This document shows, piece by piece, positions 1,972 to 10,154 of a stretch of 64,000 bases of DNA (within the stretch, counting starts at the first letter, position 1; every line of letters begins with the position of its first letter). The notes beneath the pieces are model-generated. The model did no database searches. It saw only the letters and a list, made by a program, of their open reading frames with translations, and was not told where the DNA came from. Origin of the DNA: Bradyrhizobium zhanjiangense (lineage in GTDB: Bacteria; Pseudomonadota; Alphaproteobacteria; Rhizobiales; Xanthobacteraceae); NCBI RefSeq assembly GCF_004114935.1, contig NZ_CP022221.1, forward strand, positions 5,229,001 to 5,293,000. The letters run 5' to 3'. A program made the translations under genes and the position numbers.

Positions 1972-2340
1972 CTACTCGGCCAGGAACGACGTGGTCTTGG
2001 TGCCGGAGTCGTAGTGCAGCCGCAGCGCGGTGATCCTGCAGAGGTTGACGTTCTTCCACAGCACCGCCTCGTCGTAGTTCTGCCAGTCGACGCGAATGTT
2101 CCAGACACATCCCTCGTCGTCCTCGTCGAACTCGACATAGGTGCTCGCCTGGTTCTGCAAAACCTTGTCGAGCTCGTTGTCCCATTCGTCCAGGCCGTCG
2201 TCAGGCGCGTTGAAGCCGAGGAATTTGATGGCGTAGCCGGTCTCGTTGACGACGGTGACGTTGCGGGCGTCAGCCGCGAACGACGGCGCGGCGGCGATCG
2301 CAAGCCCGCTTGCGACCAGTCCGGACAGAAAATACTTCAT
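1972..2340 (-). CDS. Small secreted protein of unknown function
   Basis: The ATG at 2340 is preceded by GGGAG at good spacing and opens a clear Sec signal peptide: MKYF, a hydrophobic stretch, then a PSFAAD cleavage region near residue 22. The mature protein is about 100 residues, very acidic (EFDEDDEG) and aromatic, with two cysteines near residues 77 and 99 that could form a disulfide. It resembles small periplasmic proteins of Bradyrhizobium whose function is unknown. The open frame extends upstream to 2442, but that part lacks a ribosome site and looks non-coding. Confidence 0.75.
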   Translation of the reverse strand: MKYFLSGLVASGLAIAAAPSFAADARNVTVVNETGYAIKFLGFNAPDDGLDEWDNELDKVLQNQASTYVEFDEDDEGCVWNIRVDWQNYDEAVLWKNVNLCRITALRLHYDSGTKTTSFLAE

Positions 2341-2552
2341 CGAAAAACTCCCGATCGAAACAGGCCTCGGCGCCTGGCGTCGATCGGCGCAGGCGCCGCG
2401 GCAACAAATGACGTTGCCTCGAAAGATCCGTCCGGAGCGCAATCGACGGGTTCAAGACACCCATCGACCAGCACTCCGGAAGACGTGCGCGACGCGAGAC
2501 ACGCACGGCCTGTTCTTATCGTTTCGAATTCTCCGCAGCAATGAACGGGCAT

Positions 2553-4256
2553 TCACAGATCGGCAGAGTTTGTTTTCTCCGGTGCGGGCGCAACCGCCGG
2601 CACCGCAGCGCCGTTTCCCTTCCCCGTCACGGCGCCGACCAGCGCCTTCACGGGATCTTCGCCCGACGCAAAGCCGCTCTGACGTAAGATCTCGTCGATC
2701 ATCGGACGCAGCGCATGCACCTTGAGCAGTTCGCCGGCGAGCCCTTCGCCGAAGCCGACATTGCCGCCGGCGCCGTTACCATTGCCGCCGAAGGCGGCGC
2801 CGGTATGCAGGATGCGGACGTCCTTGAGGTTGGCGATCGGCTTCACCATCTCGGCGAGCGCTTCCGGCATGGTCTCGATCCGTTTCTTGGCGATCTCGAA
2901 ATCGATCACGTTGGTGCCGAGCTTGTTCTGCGCCTCGTTCTTCATGGTGATGACGGCGGCCTCGGCCTCACCGATGTTGCGGACACCGACCGCCTTGATC
3001 TTGTTGGACTCGGCTTCGGCGGTGGCCAGCGTGGTGATGGCCTCGGCCCGGTCGAGCGCCGCCTTCTTGTCCGCTTCAGCCGCCACGATCACCTCGGTCG
3101 ATTTGCGCTCGGCCTCGGTACGCGCGGCAAGCACCTGGGTCAGACGGGCACGATCGGCAACCTCGACGGCGCGCGCGGTCACGACCTTTTCCTCGGCGGA
3201 GACGGCGAGCGCTTCGGCGGTCTTGGCTTCGGCGACGGCCTCCGAGGTCTGCTTGCTCTTGGCGGCGATCTGGATCTCGTTCTCCTGGGTCGCGATCTGG
3301 ATCTCGCGCTGCGCGTCGGTCCTGCGCTTGTTGATCGCCAGATCCGACTCGATCACCGCGGTTTCCTTGACCTGCTTGGCGCCGGCCTCCTTTTCTGCGA
3401 CTGCCCTGTCGGTGTCGATGCGGGCGTTCTCCTCGGTCAGGCGCGCGGTCTGTGTCGCGGTCGCGACCTCGGCGCGAGTGCTCGCGGTTTTGTTGGCGAT
3501 GTCACGCTCCTGCGAGAGTTCGGCCTCCTTCTTGGTGCGTTCGATGGTCAGGGTCTGCTGCCGTGCTTCGAGATCCTTCTGCGCGATCGCCACCTCGTTG
3601 TCGCGGACGATGGCATTGCGGTCACGGCGGCGGGTCTCGGTAATGGTCTTGAGTTGGGTCAGGCCTTCGGCGTCGAAGAAGTTTTCCGGATTGAAGAACT
3701 TGACGTCGGTCTGGTCCAGCTTGGTCAGCGACACGGACTCAAGCTCGAGGCCGTTCGATTTCACGTCGGACTCCACGGTGGACTGCACGTGCTTGACGAA
3801 GTCCGAGCGCTTCTCCTGGAGCTCCAGGATGGTCATGGTCGCGGCCACCGAACGCAGGCCGTCGACGAATTTCGCCTCGACCTGGTTGCGCAGCGCCTCG
3901 GCATCGTTGGTCAGCGCGCCCAGCGTCTGGCTTGCGAGCGCGATGCTCTCCTCGTCGGGACGGACGCGTACGTAGAACTCGGCGACGATGTCGACGCGCA
4001 GACGGTCCTTGGTGATGAGGGATTCCCGCTCCTTGCGCTCGACGGTGAGCCGCAATGTCTTCAGATTGACGCTGGCATAGGAGTGGAAGATCGGCAGGAT
4101 CATGGCGCCGCCGTCGAGCACGACCTTCTTGCCGCCGAGGCCGGTGCGCACGAAGGCCTCGTCGCGGGTGGCGCGCTTGTAAAGAATGGTGAAGACGATC
4201 CCCAGGACGACGATCAGCGCGACGCCAATCATGGCCGGGACTGCGATGTCGAACAT
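2553..4256 (-). CDS. yqiK: Flotillin-family SPFH protein (YqiK type)
   Basis: This 567-residue flotillin has one N-terminal membrane helix (about residues 8-28), then an SPFH/band-7 domain, then a long Ala/Glu/Lys-rich coiled coil (about 200-430), and a Gly-rich C-terminal region. Flotillins form oligomeric scaffolds in ordered membrane domains and affect membrane fluidity and envelope stress responses. It is the last gene of an operon: the OB-fold membrane protein upstream ends 22 bases before this ATG, and a PspA-like gene precedes that. The same pairing is known for E. coli yqiJ-yqiK. Length and domain order are normal for the family. Confidence 0.93.
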   Translation of the reverse strand: MFDIAVPAMIGVALIVVLGIVFTILYKRATRDEAFVRTGLGGKKVVLDGGAMILPIFHSYASVNLKTLRLTVERKERESLITKDRLRVDIVAEFYVRVRPDEESIALASQTLGALTNDAEALRNQVEAKFVDGLRSVAATMTILELQEKRSDFVKHVQSTVESDVKSNGLELESVSLTKLDQTDVKFFNPENFFDAEGLTQLKTITETRRRDRNAIVRDNEVAIAQKDLEARQQTLTIERTKKEAELSQERDIANKTASTRAEVATATQTARLTEENARIDTDRAVAEKEAGAKQVKETAVIESDLAINKRRTDAQREIQIATQENEIQIAAKSKQTSEAVAEAKTAEALAVSAEEKVVTARAVEVADRARLTQVLAARTEAERKSTEVIVAAEADKKAALDRAEAITTLATAEAESNKIKAVGVRNIGEAEAAVITMKNEAQNKLGTNVIDFEIAKKRIETMPEALAEMVKPIANLKDVRILHTGAAFGGNGNGAGGNVGFGEGLAGELLKVHALRPMIDEILRQSGFASGEDPVKALVGAVTGKGNGAAVPAVAPAPEKTNSADL

Positions 4257-4278
4257 GACTTTCTCCGATAATGGCCTG

Positions 4279-4938
4279 CTAGCTGCTTAGAGTGGGCTTG
4301 GAGGGTTTGAGTTCATCGTCGGCCTTGACCGCCACGAAGCGGGTGCCATCGCGGTCGACCAGAAGGACCATGGTTCCCTGCGGCAGCGGCGATGATGAAG
4401 GTGCTGCGACGGCCCAGACGAAGTGACGGTTGCCGTGGACATCGGCGACGCTGACGCGGCCAGGCGGCCCCTGGTCGAGCGGACCGACGACGACCTCACC
4501 GACCCGGCCGACGAGATCGCCGAGGCCGACGGCGTAGCTCTCGTCCTTGGGAATGACCCGCGCGATCGCACGGCTTGCGCCGCGGACCAGCGGAACCGAT
4601 GCGGCCACCGCCCCGATCGAGGCCACCGTCGCCGGCAACGGACCGGCCACCATCCGCGCGACGTCCTGGATCAGGAAGCCCGTGATGGAGAAGGCGCCGA
4701 GCAACAGCAGCAGGAAGATCAGCAACGGCACGCCACCGACATTGATCCATGAGATCGCGTTGATCACGCCATTGTCGCTGGGGTGGCCGAAATCGATGTT
4801 GGTGCCGAGCATTTCGCTAAGCGAAGCCCCGACCAGCATCGAGACCACCTCGATCGAGCCGACGATGACGATCATGGCCGCCGCGATCGCGAACGGCCTG
4901 ACCTCCGGCGACATGACGTGTTCGAGCAGAGCGCTCAT
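4279..4938 (-). CDS. yqiJ: YqiJ-like OB-fold inner-membrane protein, flotillin partner
   Basis: This 219-residue protein has two or three hydrophobic segments in its N-terminal half (about 15-38, 68-90 and possibly 100-120). Its C-terminal domain, about residues 140-210, reads as a small beta barrel (GDLVGRVGEVVVGPL followed by ATFV-type strands ending in VLLVDRDG). This is the OB-fold seen in NfeD, YuaF and YqiJ proteins, which are encoded with flotillins and are thought to help organise them in the membrane. It lies ten bases after the PspA-like gene and 22 bases before the flotillin, so the three are surely co-transcribed. Confidence 0.85.
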   Translation of the reverse strand: MSALLEHVMSPEVRPFAIAAAMIVIVGSIEVVSMLVGASLSEMLGTNIDFGHPSDNGVINAISWINVGGVPLLIFLLLLLGAFSITGFLIQDVARMVAGPLPATVASIGAVAASVPLVRGASRAIARVIPKDESYAVGLGDLVGRVGEVVVGPLDQGPPGRVSVADVHGNRHFVWAVAAPSSSPLPQGTMVLLVDRDGTRFVAVKADDELKPSKPTLSS

Positions 4939-4948
4939 GACACGGCAC

Positions 4949-6103
4949 TCAGGAACGCGACTTCAACCGGGCCAGCCTCGCTGCAATTTCCTTGTCGCGA
5001 TGCAACGTGCTGAGCTCGTCGATGTCGCTCGAATACGGGATGCCCGGCGGCACGCCAGTGACCCGCGCCACCGCCCTGCCCGCGCGCAGCGCGTTCGCGG
5101 CTGCAGAACCGCCGCCCGGCTTGCGGGGCGATGTCGACGCCTGCTGGCCTGCGACGGCCTCGCTCTTTTCGAGATCGGCGCGGCGCTGCTCGGCGTCCTG
5201 GAGCGCCGACAGCACGGCGCGCAGCGACGTCACGCATTGCTCGATCTTCTCGTTGTTCTCGTCGATGGCGCGCGAGAGCACCTCGAACTGCGCCTCCAGA
5301 TCCATCTGCCGCGCGATGCCGGCGCGCGCGAGATCGTCGCGCCCGTCCGTGATCGCCCCTTCGATCTTGGGAGCGAGCTTGGCCATCTCGCGCTCGATCT
5401 CGGTGCGGCGCGCGTTGAGGCGGTATTCCTCGGCGCGCGCGGCCGCGAGCGCATCGCGCGCCTCGCTCTCGGCGCGCTCGATCTCGCGGATGGCTTGGCC
5501 AACCACTTTGAGCTTGTTCTTGCCTTCCGCCTGCTCGATCGCGTCATAGGCGATCCCCGCGATCAGACGCCCGACTCGGGACAGGAAATTGTCGGGGGCG
5601 GCAGCGATGGTATCCATAGCGTTCTCCTCCTCTGGCAGAATGTTCGGCGTGACGCCGTAGTGAACTTCGAAACCGTCGTCAGTGCGGATCAGGTGCGCGG
5701 GCACGCTCTGCCCCCAGCCCTCGGCATAGCCCGCATAGTCGAAGGGCACGCTGAAGCGGCCTTGCACGGTTGCAATCGAAATGGTGGCCGGGCCCTTGAT
5801 CTTGGCGAGCTTGTCGTCGAGCGGCAGGCGACGGCCCTGCGCCGCGCGATAGTCGACACGGTCGCGCAGGCCCAGCGTCACCAGGCGTGAGGGCAGCGCG
5901 GTCTGCTTGCGGATCGGCTCATAGGCATGGGCATGGAGCAGGACCACGTTGGAACCGATGTTATGGCTCCGCGCGACCTCGTCGAGAATCTCCATCATGC
6001 GGTCATAAGCCTGGAACGTCGCCTCCAGCGCGCCCCTGGCAGCCGGATCGGGGGCAAGCCTGTAACGCAGCGCAGATGGAGCGTTTCGGGGTGACGGGCT
6101 CAT
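4949..6103 (-). CDS. PspA/IM30-like protein with in-frame N-terminal TnpB-like domain
   Basis: One uninterrupted frame encodes two unlike parts. Residues 163-384 are a PspA/IM30-type coiled-coil protein: an amphipathic N-terminus with FLSRVGRLI, long charged helices and the DRDDLARAGIARQ-type segment of the family. These proteins bind stressed membranes. Residues 10-155 instead resemble the N-terminal half of IS605-family TnpB: RYRL at 13, an AYD helix, YEPIRKQTALPSRLV at 61-75, and SIATVQGRFSVPF at 109-121. The frame changes identity just where the RuvC-I motif should begin, so no nuclease half exists. A very strong ribosome site (AGGAGGAG) sits before Met163 at 5617, so PspA can be made alone. 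The longer product may start at ATG 6103, which has a poor ribosome site. The flotillin operon follows. Confidence 0.7.
   Translation of the reverse strand: MSPSPRNAPSALRYRLAPDPAARGALEATFQAYDRMMEILDEVARSHNIGSNVVLLHAHAYEPIRKQTALPSRLVTLGLRDRVDYRAAQGRRLPLDDKLAKIKGPATISIATVQGRFSVPFDYAGYAEGWGQSVPAHLIRTDDGFEVHYGVTPNILPEEENAMDTIAAAPDNFLSRVGRLIAGIAYDAIEQAEGKNKLKVVGQAIREIERAESEARDALAAARAEEYRLNARRTEIEREMAKLAPKIEGAITDGRDDLARAGIARQMDLEAQFEVLSRAIDENNEKIEQCVTSLRAVLSALQDAEQRRADLEKSEAVAGQQASTSPRKPGGGSAAANALRAGRAVARVTGVPPGIPYSSDIDELSTLHRDKEIAARLARLKSRS
5618..5640 (-). promoter_or_regulatory. Strong internal ribosome binding site for the PspA part
   Basis: Read on the minus strand, AGAGGAGGAGAACGCT lies immediately before an in-frame ATG at 5617. 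It is the best Shine-Dalgarno sequence in this region, and it falls inside the longer TnpB-like reading frame, where it codes for a run of glutamates. It suggests that the 222-residue PspA-like protein is translated from 5617, either as the main product or as a second shorter one. Confidence 0.7.
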
Positions 6104-6112
6104 GGAAAGCAC

Positions 6113-6135
6113 TAAAGCACCATTTTGGTGCTTTA
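6113..6135. repeat. Perfect 10-bp inverted repeat upstream of the TnpB-like/PspA frame
   Basis: TAAAGCACCA and its exact complement TGGTGCTTTA are separated by three T residues, giving a 23-base palindrome. It ends ten bases before the candidate ATG at 6103. It could be an operator for autoregulation or a hairpin at the 5' end of the transcript. It is AT-richer than its surroundings and is not one of the recognisable dispersed repeats. Confidence 0.6.
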
Positions 6136-6327
6136 GGAAGCGGAGTCGCGATCACGGTCCGCTGATCCCTAGGCACTCTATCGGTTAGTCGCCGAGGTCC
6201 GGGCCCGCGTTCAAGCCGGGCGATTACCTCCAGATCACAACCGATCAAGACTTCCGGCACGCATGGGTTGCAATTTGAGCCGAAATGCGGAGAGCGTTCG
6301 GCATCCCGTAACCGACGCCACTCTCGT

Positions 6328-6480
6328 GTCCCGGACAAGCAGCAACGCCAAAGGCGTTGCGGCGCAGAGCCGGGATCCAGCAGGCCACGGTAATCGCTGT
6401 CGCAGGGGGCCCGGCTCAGCAGCGCACCGTTCCCGGACGATGCTTCGCATCGCGTTGAGAGCGCTGCGTCCGGGCCGCGA
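6328..6480. repeat. Dispersed palindromic repeat (GTCCCGGAC type)
   Basis: The segment is bounded by TGTCCCGGACAAGC on the left and a GCGTCCGGGCC element on the right. It contains the perfect inner palindrome GCAACGCC-AAA-GGCGTTGC at 6342-6360. I recognise this from intergenic regions of Bradyrhizobium, where many near-copies occur. That recollection, rather than a second copy in this window, is the main support. Confidence 0.55.
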
Positions 6481-6512
6481 GACGGAGATTGAAGCGCAGA
6501 CTCTCTCCACGT

Positions 6513-6600
6513 CGTCATTGCGAGGAGCTCTTGCGACGAAGCAATCCAGAGTCATTCCGCGGAGAGATTCTGGATTGCTTCGCTTTCGCTCGCAATGACG
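6513..6600. repeat. Dispersed inverted repeat (CGTCATTGCGAGGAGC type)
   Basis: The left arm starts CGTCATTGCGAG and contains GACGAAGCAATCCAGA. The right arm contains TCTGGATTGCTTCGC and ends CGCAATGACG, so the 88-base unit can fold into one long hairpin. This is a common intergenic palindromic element in Bradyrhizobium genomes. No gene is inside it. Confidence 0.75.
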
Positions 6601-6692
6601 GAGTTGGACGCAACACCTCTCTCTACCAACGCAAATCTCTGTCTCAGACACACCTACGCCTCCTCGCGGCTCTTCTCGCCCGAGTCATGCTC

Positions 6693-7200
6693 CATCTCGA
6701 CACCCTCTTTTGTCAGAGGGCGCAGGGAAGACCGGGCTGGGCACCCGCGGTCCACTGTGCGAAAGGTTGCGCTACAAGAGGCTGCACAGCGGCATACAGG
6801 TGGAGCCGGAAACAACCCGGCCTTCCCTGCGCAGTGGTTTGACGGCTTATGCCGAGCTCTCCCCGGGGAGCGATGCACTATTGCCCCCGTCGCTTTGCAG
6901 ATGGCTGATGCGCGCGCCCGGTCGGACGAAACGCATCACCGCAAGACTTGACGCACAGGCCCCGGGCGTCAGGACGACGCGGTTTTGCCGTACGCTGGTC
7001 GCACCGGTCGTTTGCGCGTGGCGATCGCTCACGGTCTCCCGCCCTGCGATTGCCTCACCGCGCCGGTGCTGCCAGCGGCCACCACGGCTCATCCCGCGTT
7101 TCGTGACGATCGCGATACGCCCCTCTGACTGGGGATGAGGTGGCGCGACAATGCGACAAATCAGAATTTCTGTAAAGGCGAATATTTTCACTTGCTACGA
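6693..7200. repeat. Probable long dispersed repeat with pseudo-coding frames
   Basis: In one frame the plus strand encodes a phrase like PAFPAQWFDGLCRALPGERC. In another it reads LDAQAPGVRTTRFCRTL. I recall both phrases recurring as spurious proteins in many Bradyrhizobium genomes. The segment ends with a distinctive AT-richer tail (TCAGAATTTCTGTAAAGGCG). It is best read as an interspersed, non-protein repeat; the exact ends are uncertain. Confidence 0.5.
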
Positions 7201-7245
7201 TTGACCCGTCGGTTGTGTGTTTTGCCCGACGGACAACGCAACGGC

Positions 7246-7283
7246 TTGTAGCCCGGATTTCGCTGCCGCTCCATCCTGGCTAC
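7246..7283. repeat. Short dispersed repeat (GTAGCCCGGAT type)
   Basis: TGTAGCCCGGAT on the left is mirrored by ATCCTGGCTACA on the right, with one mismatch. It matches a short palindromic element frequent between genes in Bradyrhizobium. It lies just beyond the ridA stop codon and may form a hairpin at the end of that transcript. Confidence 0.55.
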
Positions 7284-7292
7284 AGCAACATC

Positions 7293-7676
7293 TCACGGCC
7301 GCCGGCACACCAGGTCGATCTCGATCAGCGCGTCATAAGCAAGGCCAGTGACGCCGACGCAGGTGCGGGCCGGCAGGCGATCCGGTGCAAAGTAGCTGCG
7401 ATACGTCTCGTTCATCGCCGCGTAGTCCGCCTTGAACCGCGTGAGATACACGCGCGTCATCACGACATGCTCGAGGCCGAGACCAAGTCCGGCCAGAACC
7501 ACCTTCAAATTCTCCATCACCGCGCGGGTCTGCGCGACGATGCCCTCGGGCAGGACGCCGGGCGCTTGTGGTGTATCCGGCATCTGGCCGGTGACGAAGA
7601 CGAAGCCGTCGGTCTCCACCGCGTGGCTGAAGGGCGCGACCGGCTTCGGTCCGCCGCTGATCATGTGGAATTTCAC
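7293..7676 (-). CDS. RidA/YjgF/UK114-family enamine/imine deaminase
   Basis: This 127-residue RidA-family protein has FVFVTGQMPDTP near the N-terminus, then the Val/Leu-rich helix with TRAVMENLKVVLAGLG. The C-terminal strand carries the family arginine in PARTCVGV (about residue 104), which binds the carboxylate of imine intermediates. RidA proteins hydrolyse reactive enamines and imines released by PLP or amidohydrolase chemistry. It is the last gene of the amide operon, 13 bases after the AraC-formamidase fusion, so it probably handles a reactive by-product of that pathway or is a specialised paralogue. The length is normal. Confidence 0.92.
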   Translation of the reverse strand: MKFHMISGGPKPVAPFSHAVETDGFVFVTGQMPDTPQAPGVLPEGIVAQTRAVMENLKVVLAGLGLGLEHVVMTRVYLTRFKADYAAMNETYRSYFAPDRLPARTCVGVTGLAYDALIEIDLVCRRP

Positions 7677-7689
7677 TTGGGTGTCCTTG

Positions 7690-10020
7690 TCAAGGTGCGT
7701 CCTGAAACAGGCGCTTGCTGAGGATGGCGTGCACGCCCCAATTGCCGTCGACCACCTGCGTGACGCCGAAATCGACGGCGGCCGACATCAGCGCGATCGC
7801 CTCGTCCTCGCTGAGACCTTTGGTGTTCATCAGGAAGCGCCGCATCTTGCGGAACGCGTCCTTCATGGCGAGATCGAGCGAGGATTTTGCGTAGACCTCG
7901 CTTTGGCCCTGCGCGCCGAACTCGGCGAGGTAATTCGGGTGGCTGAAGCCGGTCAGCACCCAGTCGGTCTCGGTCTCGATGAGGGGATAAGAGAGATCGG
8001 CGAAGGGCCGGCCGGCGAGATCGGCCTTCTTGTGCAGGATCACCTCGAAGGTGCCGGTCATCGAGCATTCGATCGCGGTGCCGCTGAGCTCGCCGTCGCC
8101 CTGTGTGGCATGGGGATCGCCGACCGACAACAGTGCTCCGGGCACGGAGACCGGAAGATAGACGGTCGCCCCCTTCCCGAGCCGCCAGTTGTCGAGATTG
8201 CCTCCGAAATAGGACGGCGGCACGGAATCGACGAAATCGACCTCGCGCGGCGCCACCGCGATCACGCCGAAATGCGGCCGCAGGGGAATGCGGATGCCGT
8301 CGAGCACGGCGTGGCGGGGCTTGATCGTACCGGGCGTGACGGGAACGCCGGGATAGTCGTAGGTGGCGTGCACCACGCCGGAGGGATCGGTCTGCGGCTC
8401 CCAGCGGTAGGAATAAAGCGCGCGGGCGTGTGGCTGCACGGGATCGTCGAAGATCTCGTAGATGGTAACGACCTCGCGCGGCTGGGGACCGCCGAGAAAC
8501 TCGCTATAGTGATAGCCCCACCACGCCGCGACCGAAGAGCCGAACACGCGGCCCGCATGGTTCGGGCTGCGGCTTGCGCGCGGGACGATGTCGAGGATGC
8601 GCACCTCCAGCACGTCGCCGGGCTGGGCGTCCTTGACCGCGACCGGCCCAGTGCAGATGTGGACGCCGAATCCCTCGCCCGCGCCGCGGCCGAACACGCT
8701 GGCATCCATGGGACCGGCACCGCGGCGGTCGACGTTCTTCTTGTCGGCCGTCCAGCCGAACACGCTTTCGGCGCCGGCATCGCCCGCGATCATCATCTCC
8801 GGCGCGTCGGAGGCGTGCTGGGTCAGCGTTTCGATGGTGATGGTATCGCCGGAGGCAATCTCGATCTGCGGCGACAGCGAGCGGCTGAAATAACCCCAAT
8901 GGACGCGGCGGGCCTCGACCGGGAGGTGATGATGCCTCCGCTCCGACGTGGTTCGCTCCTCGCTGCCGGCACAAGTGACGCTGCTGCGGACCTCCACGCT
9001 CTGATGCGTGCGGAGCTGTGCCAGCGCCTCCTGTGGCCAGCCGCGCTGGCCGGCGACGCCATGCTGCGAGGTCGCCCGCTCCGCCTCCTGCTGGCGAAAC
9101 TCGCGCGGCGGCAATCCGAAGCGATGACGGAAGGCGCGGCTGAAATGCGCGGAGTCGCCGAAGCCATAGGCGTAGGCGATCTCCGAGATCGAGCGATGCG
9201 CCTCGGCCGGATTGGAGAGATCGGCAAAGGCGCGCTGGAGTCGGCGCTCGCGAACGTAATGGGTAAAATTGTCGCCGACGGTTTCGAACAGCTTTTGCAA
9301 ATAGCGTTCGGAGATGCCCTCGGCCTGCGCGACACGCGCCGGTACCAGATCGGGATCGTCGAGGCGGCGCTCGATGGTCTGACAGATTCTGTGGAGCAGC
9401 GCGGCCTGCGTCGCGCTCGATCCGGCATCGGAGGCCGATGATGCCAGCCGATGCGCGAGCGTCAGGAGAAGATCGACCAGAGACTGCGCGACCGAATTCC
9501 ATTCGGCGTCACTCAGGGTGTCGAGGATCCGTGCGGTCGTGTCGAGCAGACGGGAGAATACATCGGCAAAGCCGCCGGGTGGGACGACGCGGGGCTCACC
9601 GAGCCGTGGCTTGACCGAGAGGCGTCCGTGCAGCGCCTCCGAGGTCACCGACAGCGCGATGGCGCGCATGTCGCGCTGAAATACGACGCTCCAGTCGCCG
9701 GCTCGCGGCAGCAGCACGAGGTGGCCGACGGGAACGATGCGATGACCGCCGGCGCTTTTCAGCACCATACCGTCCTCGACCGGCAACAGCGCGATCGGAA
9801 GATCTTCACTCGCTTGCGCGAGAGGCCCGACACTCTGCGCGCCTGCGGCCATGCGGGTCAGTGCAACACCTGCGGTGTGGCGATGGGATGCGGTCGCGTG
9901 TCCGTCGAAAATGCCGTGACCGCCCGCTGGTTGCAGGCCGACCGCAGCCAGCACGTCCCGCCAGGCTTCGGGGCGGTCGTCTTGCGCGTAGGATTCGCTC
10001 GTGAACGGGCGGAAGCTCAT
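7690..10020 (-). CDS. AraC-family regulator fused to a formamidase/acetamidase
   Basis: One open frame joins two proteins usually encoded separately. Counting from the ATG at 10020, residues 1-200 are an AraC ligand-binding-like domain and about 208-310 the double helix-turn-helix (ISEIAYAYGFGDSAHFSRAF). A linker of about 50 residues follows. Residues 363-776 are a full FmdA/AmdA amidase, closely related to the neighbouring formamidase (VHWGYFS, HHA, VGDPHATQGDGELSGTAIE). Such amidases hydrolyse short amides to ammonia and acid. The linker encodes a GAGGAG-like ribosome site followed by ACG where an amidase ATG would be expected, so the fusion may stem from a lost start codon and lost stop. 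The frame is open to a GTG at 10119, which would add 33 residues. Confidence 0.82.
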   Translation of the reverse strand: MSFRPFTSESYAQDDRPEAWRDVLAAVGLQPAGGHGIFDGHATASHRHTAGVALTRMAAGAQSVGPLAQASEDLPIALLPVEDGMVLKSAGGHRIVPVGHLVLLPRAGDWSVVFQRDMRAIALSVTSEALHGRLSVKPRLGEPRVVPPGGFADVFSRLLDTTARILDTLSDAEWNSVAQSLVDLLLTLAHRLASSASDAGSSATQAALLHRICQTIERRLDDPDLVPARVAQAEGISERYLQKLFETVGDNFTHYVRERRLQRAFADLSNPAEAHRSISEIAYAYGFGDSAHFSRAFRHRFGLPPREFRQQEAERATSQHGVAGQRGWPQEALAQLRTHQSVEVRSSVTCAGSEERTTSERRHHHLPVEARRVHWGYFSRSLSPQIEIASGDTITIETLTQHASDAPEMMIAGDAGAESVFGWTADKKNVDRRGAGPMDASVFGRGAGEGFGVHICTGPVAVKDAQPGDVLEVRILDIVPRASRSPNHAGRVFGSSVAAWWGYHYSEFLGGPQPREVVTIYEIFDDPVQPHARALYSYRWEPQTDPSGVVHATYDYPGVPVTPGTIKPRHAVLDGIRIPLRPHFGVIAVAPREVDFVDSVPPSYFGGNLDNWRLGKGATVYLPVSVPGALLSVGDPHATQGDGELSGTAIECSMTGTFEVILHKKADLAGRPFADLSYPLIETETDWVLTGFSHPNYLAEFGAQGQSEVYAKSSLDLAMKDAFRKMRRFLMNTKGLSEDEAIALMSAAVDFGVTQVVDGNWGVHAILSKRLFQDAP

Positions 10021-10154
10021 CGGATCGACCCAGATTGCAGTCGATCGAAGCAACCTCTGTGCCAGACGCACGCGGTCCTCCGTCACAGCGACGGGCCGCA
10101 AATGAGGTTTGTCCTTCACGCGTTCATCCGGAATATGGAATGCACTTCAATGCA

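Follow-up and report, generated by a model that had tools for sequence, protein, structure and literature searches.

A RuvC-less half of TnpB fused to PspA as a candidate guide-free repressor of its own flotillin operon in alphaproteobacteria

The window, that is, the entire 64,000-nucleotide stretch of the Bradyrhizobium zhanjiangense genome that was analyzed, carries on its minus strand a three-gene operon. The first gene combines an N-terminal half related to the transposon-encoded nuclease TnpB with a PspA/IM30 part and is followed by the genes for YqiJ and a flotillin. The relevant features are the following:

4949..6112, minus strand: fusion gene, TnpB half plus PspA, 387 aa, a single intact frame from GTG 6112 or ATG 6103 to the stop at 4949
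5645..6073, minus strand: TnpB-derived WED/REC half (Nd), residues about 14-156, assigned by profile and fold
5885..5887, minus strand: codon of Arg76, a residue that varies together with base 5 of the operator and lies at the beginning of REC helix 75-90
4949..5617, minus strand: PspA/IM30 part, identified by its Pfam domain, with its own internal start, ATG 5617
5626..5631, minus strand: internal Shine-Dalgarno sequence AGGAGG, preceding ATG 5617
6114..6134, minus strand: proposed operator, the 21-bp inverted repeat AAAGCACCAAAATGGTGCTTT, ending 10 nt before ATG 6103; single exact copy in the genome
4279..4938, minus strand: YqiJ (YqiJ_N and YqiJ_OB by domain matches), second gene of the operon; a homologue follows in all 38 representative lineages
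2553..4256, minus strand: YqiK-like flotillin (Band_7 and Flot by domain matches), third gene of the operon

The original prediction of an in-frame fusion between a TnpB half and PspA within a flotillin operon is confirmed: the gene is one intact frame ahead of YqiJ and flotillin, its 3' end, the place where a TnpB gene encodes its omega-RNA, lies 10 bp from yqiJ, and a flotillin homologue is encoded downstream in all 69 loci for which more than 3.5 kb of downstream sequence is available. Residues 177-324 of the fusion match PspA_IM30 with 51 bits (the Pfam cut-off is 33.9), but the canonical PspA equivalog TIGR02977 is not reached (33.8 bits for the fusion and 35.6 for the PspA part alone, against 242.95). 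Residues 1-164 have no Pfam or NCBIfam match at E <= 1, and the RuvC nuclease domain and zinc finger (PF01385, PF07282) are unmatched in the fusion frame, which runs on into PspA. Elsewhere in the window, an 809-aa frame (7690-10119) appears, by eye, to join an AraC-type regulator to an acetamidase/formamidase-like part.

The affinity of the N-terminal half with TnpB, proposed in the original prediction from short sequence blocks, was examined through structure modeling and profile searches, both of which bear it out. The AlphaFold model of the ~150-aa half (pLDDT 87.5) retrieved nothing at E <= 0.001 with Foldseek by itself; alignment of the Foldseek candidates with VIA-align gave a clear match, the first 47 rows being TnpB, Fanzor and Cas12 entries. 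Profile A3 of the half detects intact TnpB with an E-value of 7.7e-8. The match of profile A1 to TnpB (E 0.0028) had been distrusted until A3 reached this value, because unrelated proteins score 2e-4 to 4e-4 with A3; the proteins in question, L110 (by eye a chemoreceptor) and L177, were rejected as chance matches, and two further candidates, L100 (E 0.0125) and L101 (E 0.0356), also look like chance. A sequence search of the PDB with the half yielded nothing usable: the best match, sticholysin (E 0.04), was rejected as chance, and profile A3 found no PDB entry at E <= 10. In addition to the profile homology with intact TnpBs, the half shares with ISDra2 TnpB (8bf8/8h1j) the WED/REC fold over about 140 residues, the HxxxY...R motif and the TAM-reading helix, and contains 18 residues that are invariant across 15 divergent rows of the alignment. 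Unlike TnpB, it has neither RuvC nor a zinc finger, its REC-WED linker is shortened, its charge is near neutral and it sits in a conserved host operon. As judged by predicted fold and profile, the half is the WED/REC, TAM-reading part of an IS605-type TnpB, apparently domesticated after the loss of RuvC and the zinc finger.

A protein search with the fusion identified 304 relatives, and among the 120 matches listed, 116 contain PF04012; a second search, with a Dongia-type fusion as the query, gave 15 matches, all 15 with PF04012, the best of which, from Dongia rigui, is identical to locus L088. A scan of GTDB species genomes, limited in its reach to close relatives, produced 64 loci, 62 of them titled Bradyrhizobium. 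In genome searches, the half was detected in 21 of 60 genomes of relatives, 20 of these being from the genus of the window. It was also found in 6 of 385 genomes of the class and, in three other orders, in 4 of 17 (three fused and one half alone), 8 of 76 and 1 of 10 genomes; the phylum search matched 11 of 398 genomes, including one TnpB and the chance match L110. The 26 matches among 397 genomes of the window's own order comprise 24 within frames of 369-519 aa, the chance match L177 and a broken remnant, L178 (genome G1199, a member of the window's genus), in which pieces of the half lie in different frames and most of PspA is gone. With the exception of this remnant, no stop is reported inside the listed matches of the genome searches; since a structural match to TnpB is present as well, neither of the outcomes that the original prediction named as refuting it is the rule. 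The half-PspA fusion is also carried by plasmids of Agrobacterium, Shinella, Rhizobium and Bosea; at five of five plasmid loci that were fetched, the fusion is followed by an OB-fold (YqiJ-type) gene and then by a flotillin gene. No regulator gene is common to the five plasmid neighborhoods, and LysR-type genes lie less than 6 kb away in two of them.

The original claim that the half is maintained by selection is upheld by the substitution rates: across 70 unique genes of the window's Bradyrhizobium clade, the median dN/dS is 0.086 for the half versus 0.102 for PspA. By this measure the gene is under purifying selection in the clade, and the fusion itself occurs in several alphaproteobacterial groups. 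Furthermore, at locus L113 (genome G801, Dongia-type group) the half stands alone, as a 185-aa frame directly before YqiJ and flotillin, with the operator kept and PspA missing at that place (only this locus was inspected); the half is therefore a component of the flotillin operon independently of PspA. A separate observation in Bradyrhizobium is that the codons of the fusion are unusually constant at 97-104 (LPLDDKLA), one of two such stretches, the other being the one at the internal start described below.

For the comparisons across lineages, the 161 loci with the half were reduced to 39 representatives (less than 90% identical), the other 122 lying outside the tables. The operator table covers 38 of the 39, L160 being left out, and the count of internal starts covers 37 of these 38, L113 being set aside because there is no PspA there. 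An in-frame ATG opens the PspA part in all 37 fused lineages, and a Shine-Dalgarno match of at least 5 nt precedes it in 32 of the 37, compared with 11 of 164 for the remaining in-frame Met codons of these genes. The residues around this ATG vary (PEEENAM, PEEKTM, KEKTM, GEHTM, QEGTM), and the most constant seven-column codon window of the gene in the Bradyrhizobium clade, within codons 155-163, coincides with the internal Shine-Dalgarno and ATG. Because these signals are kept while the flanking residues are variable, an internal start is very likely, and its conservation strongly suggests that the gene also yields PspA without the half. The choice posed originally, between a fusion domain and a leader open reading frame, accordingly need not be made: both proposals may be true, given that the internal start is conserved.

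The second conserved element of the locus is the 21-bp palindrome adjoining the start of the gene. In a set of 60 genomes, all 21 that carry the half, 20 of them from the window's genus, contain the exact pattern AAAGCAC-N7-GTGCTTT once each, beside the gene; of the 39 genomes without the half, 1 contains it. A reversed control pattern is present in 2 of the 60. In the window's genome there is one exact copy, and allowing up to 2 mismatches gives 11 matches, the same number as for the reversed control. All 38 representative lineages have, beside the gene, an inverted repeat that scores at least 10 of 13. The best site scores 13 in 23 of the 38, a value reached by none of 3,800 mononucleotide shuffles, whereas 6.8% of these shuffles score 10 or more, so that the four lowest-scoring lineages are weak taken singly. 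The half-sites differ among lineages (AAAGCAC, AAAACAC, AAAGGAC, AAAGGAT, AAAGTAT), with the length and most of the pairing persisting. Two other repeats were noticed further upstream. In Bradyrhizobium clade 2 (L077-L085), a conserved TTGCAACTCATTTGCAACTGCA-like repeat, which we presume might be a metal-regulator box, is found upstream of the operator; in the window, positions 6538-6603 upstream of the operon form an imperfect hairpin of the GCGAAGCAATCC...GGATTGCTTCG type, which we take to be a dispersed palindromic repeat of the genus.

A sigma70-type pair of -35 and -10 hexamers overlaps the repeat in 20 of the 38 lineages, compared with 8% of shuffles, and the -10 element is always in the same place; the window's own clade has poor promoter hexamers, none by the strict rule, and is outside these 20 lineages. 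A repeat overlapping a predicted -35/-10 pair is the layout of a repressor site. The start codon follows the -10 element by 6-7 nt in 16 of the 20 lineages (in the other four, the first-start rule took an in-frame TTG at 0-1 nt), a pattern which suggests, for these lineages and not for the window's clade, that the long transcript is leaderless. Among TnpB genes themselves, no consistent 21-bp operator was found in the promoters: perfect 7+7 arms are present in 2 of the 10 genes inspected (one of the 10 is truncated), which means that TnpB genes do not generally carry the operator. One of these is a full TnpB of Parageobacillus (L180), which has the perfect 21-bp repeat TATTGAATTTTTCGTTCAATA in the promoter region, upstream of position 1501 of its locus; in the other, L187, the arms are about 100 nt upstream.

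Variation of the half-sites is mirrored in the protein. All 26 lineages with Arg at residue 76 of the half have C at base 5 of the half-site (L095, with C in one arm only, is counted in the C class), and all 12 with Gln have G or T there. Among 141 alignable columns, residue 76 ranks first for base 5 (C versus non-C; normalized mutual information 0.92, next 0.77) and is the sole column that sorts all 38 lineages. However, column 106 sorts every row but one, which shows that lineage effects are strong. When column 76 is left out of the maximum-likelihood tree, residue and operator need three changes each, and since their states coincide in all 38 rows, residue 76 and base 5 change together; of the three independent paired switches on the best tree, two fall on starred branches, and with three switches a sign test cannot attain 0.05. 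The adjacent base 6 is invariably A (76 of 76 arms). The operator thus appears private to the gene's own promoter and to covary with the protein, as in an autoregulatory one-component repressor.

In the structural description of ISDra2 TnpB, the TAM, TTGAT, is read by Y52, S56, K76, F77 and Q80 of REC together with T123 and N124 of WED, with K76 reading the G at -3 and Q80 the A at -2 (PMC10097598). In all three MAFFT modes employed, the invariant Y64 and R68 of the half are placed opposite ISDra2 Y52 and S56; residue 76 falls opposite ISDra2 residue 64, which is not a TAM residue, and the helix itself is not aligned. A hand alignment anchored on the helix Tyr via the closest TnpBs (LSAQMxxRA...Y) puts residue 76 on F77. 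Positions 5-7 of the half-sites read GAT, GAC, TAT or CAC, GAT being as at the end of TTGAT, and we infer that they correspond to TAM positions -3 to -1. In the hand register, the constant A at base 6 would then match the A that is read by Gln80 in TnpB.

Guide-RNA binding by the half, suggested by the original prediction, receives no support. Across 15 rows the half has net charges from -6 to +5, while 120 TnpB N-halves range from +6 to +20; no RNA family reaches the gathering score in the Rfam search of positions 2000-7300 of the window; and RuvC, which in the available account of ISDra2 TnpB binds most of the omega-RNA scaffold together with WED (PMC10097598), is missing. For these reasons the half probably needs no RNA. 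A version of the TldR arrangement nevertheless deserves consideration, one in which the half continues to bind RNA or to be guided by an RNA from another locus, the palindrome serving as a target or as a hairpin in the leader: the half descends from TnpB, TldRs are described as TnpB-derived RNA-guided repressors (PMC13418256), and the paired changes in the repeat would suit an RNA stem too. In addition to the absence of RuvC, the near-zero charge and the lack of a known RNA family, this alternative has to contend with the position of the repeat, which sits between the -35 and -10 elements, shortly ahead of the start codon, in 20 of 38 lineages and there would be untranscribed from that promoter, making an RNA hairpin less likely. 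We consider this alternative improbable; the evidence appears to point to the reading of DNA through the TAM-reading face rather than to the binding of a guide.

Also unlikely, albeit to a slightly lesser degree, is that an unlinked repressor binds the palindrome while the half performs other work, for instance by contacting the YqiJ or flotillin protein. In general, dimeric repressors typically bind palindromes whose length is constant, YqiJ adjoins the half in 38 of 38 lineages, and the half is nearly uncharged, all of which this alternative accommodates. It does not readily explain why the exact site occurs once per genome and, one of the 60 genomes excepted, only with the half, why the site also accompanies the operon on plasmids whose five neighborhoods have no regulator in common, or why base 5 tracks residue 76 of the half. 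Finally, the half could be a leader peptide or transposon debris, in frame by chance, only PspA from ATG 5617 being of consequence. The strong internal Shine-Dalgarno and ATG and the broken Bradyrhizobium remnant would fit such an origin, but it is contradicted by the selection data (a dN/dS of 0.086 that is not above that of PspA), the 18 invariant residues across 15 divergent rows and the retention of the half without PspA in L113, and can hardly be entertained.

The reading that we favor, with a probability of roughly two in three, is that a nuclease-less, probably guide-free, TAM-reading half of TnpB autorepresses the operon of half-TnpB-PspA, YqiJ and flotillin and is tied to the membrane-stress sensor PspA. 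Under this model of autorepression, two copies of the half, paired via PspA or by themselves, would bind the promoter of their own gene at the 21-bp palindrome; each would recognize one half-site in much the way that TnpB recognizes the TAM. The bound half would repress the three genes, as suggested by the single-copy linkage and the covariation, and the internal start would supply PspA without the half. More speculatively, the assembly of PspA on damaged membrane might pull the fused half off the DNA and so open the operon. In Escherichia coli, PspA holds back PspF, and the proposed arrangement would place the same logic in one polypeptide; unlike in the classical PspA system, where the regulator PspF is a separate protein, the proposed regulator is here fused to PspA. 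With somewhat less assurance, we lean towards a broader interpretation, in which the half that reads the PAM or TAM in the TnpB/Cas12 lineage has turned into a sequence-specific transcription factor that needs no guide and pairs of which read a palindrome of TAM-like half-sites in their own promoter, the fusion with PspA combining sensor, repressor and effector in one gene and the internal start giving the effector alone.

To our knowledge, the transcription regulators known from the TnpB/Cas12 lineage are all nuclease-dead and RNA-guided. The TldRs, as reported, are guided by RNA and owe their origin to mutations that inactivated RuvC (PMC13418256). Like them, the half is a TnpB descendant for which a role as a transcription repressor is proposed; however, RuvC is inactivated but present in TldRs and gone altogether here, and specificity appears, from the sequence comparisons, to rest on protein-DNA contacts with the operator. 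The partners of the fusion, on the other hand, are those of known PspA/IM30-flotillin-YqiJ/YuaF operons: a large survey of PspA describes PspA-flotillin-YqiJ neighborhoods, and the words TnpB and transposase are absent from its main text (PMC11237479). No report of a TnpB half-PspA fusion was found in the literature searched on TnpB with PspA and TnpB with flotillin, nor any such case in that on TnpB domestication and RuvC-less forms, and no title in the literature searched names a regulator of alphaproteobacterial PspA-flotillin operons. If the proposed autorepression is correct, a TAM/PAM-reading module can work alone as a DNA-binding domain, without RuvC and probably without RNA; the lineages with Arg for C and Gln for G or T would be natural specificity variants of a module that genome editing seeks to re-target; and the alphaproteobacterial PspA-flotillin operons would be supplied with a regulator. 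The operon would also represent a very direct membrane-stress switch, in which a membrane-binding polymer bears its own repressor.

Two Paenibacillaceae plasmids, from Thermobacillus and Paenibacillus, encode free-standing, RuvC-less TnpB halves of about 180 aa (WP_157373766.1 and WP_162645586.1; L160:2989-3531 and L179:3001-3543), with no RuvC seen just downstream. Unlike the fusion, these halves have no PspA or flotillin alongside; a palindrome is absent at one of them and weak, with 6 of 7 pairs, at the other. They are possibly a second case of the same trick. The first of the two shares 47% identity with a full TnpB and 52% with the second, so the Paenibacillaceae halves are probably of a separate, younger origin, and the loss of RuvC may have happened more than once.
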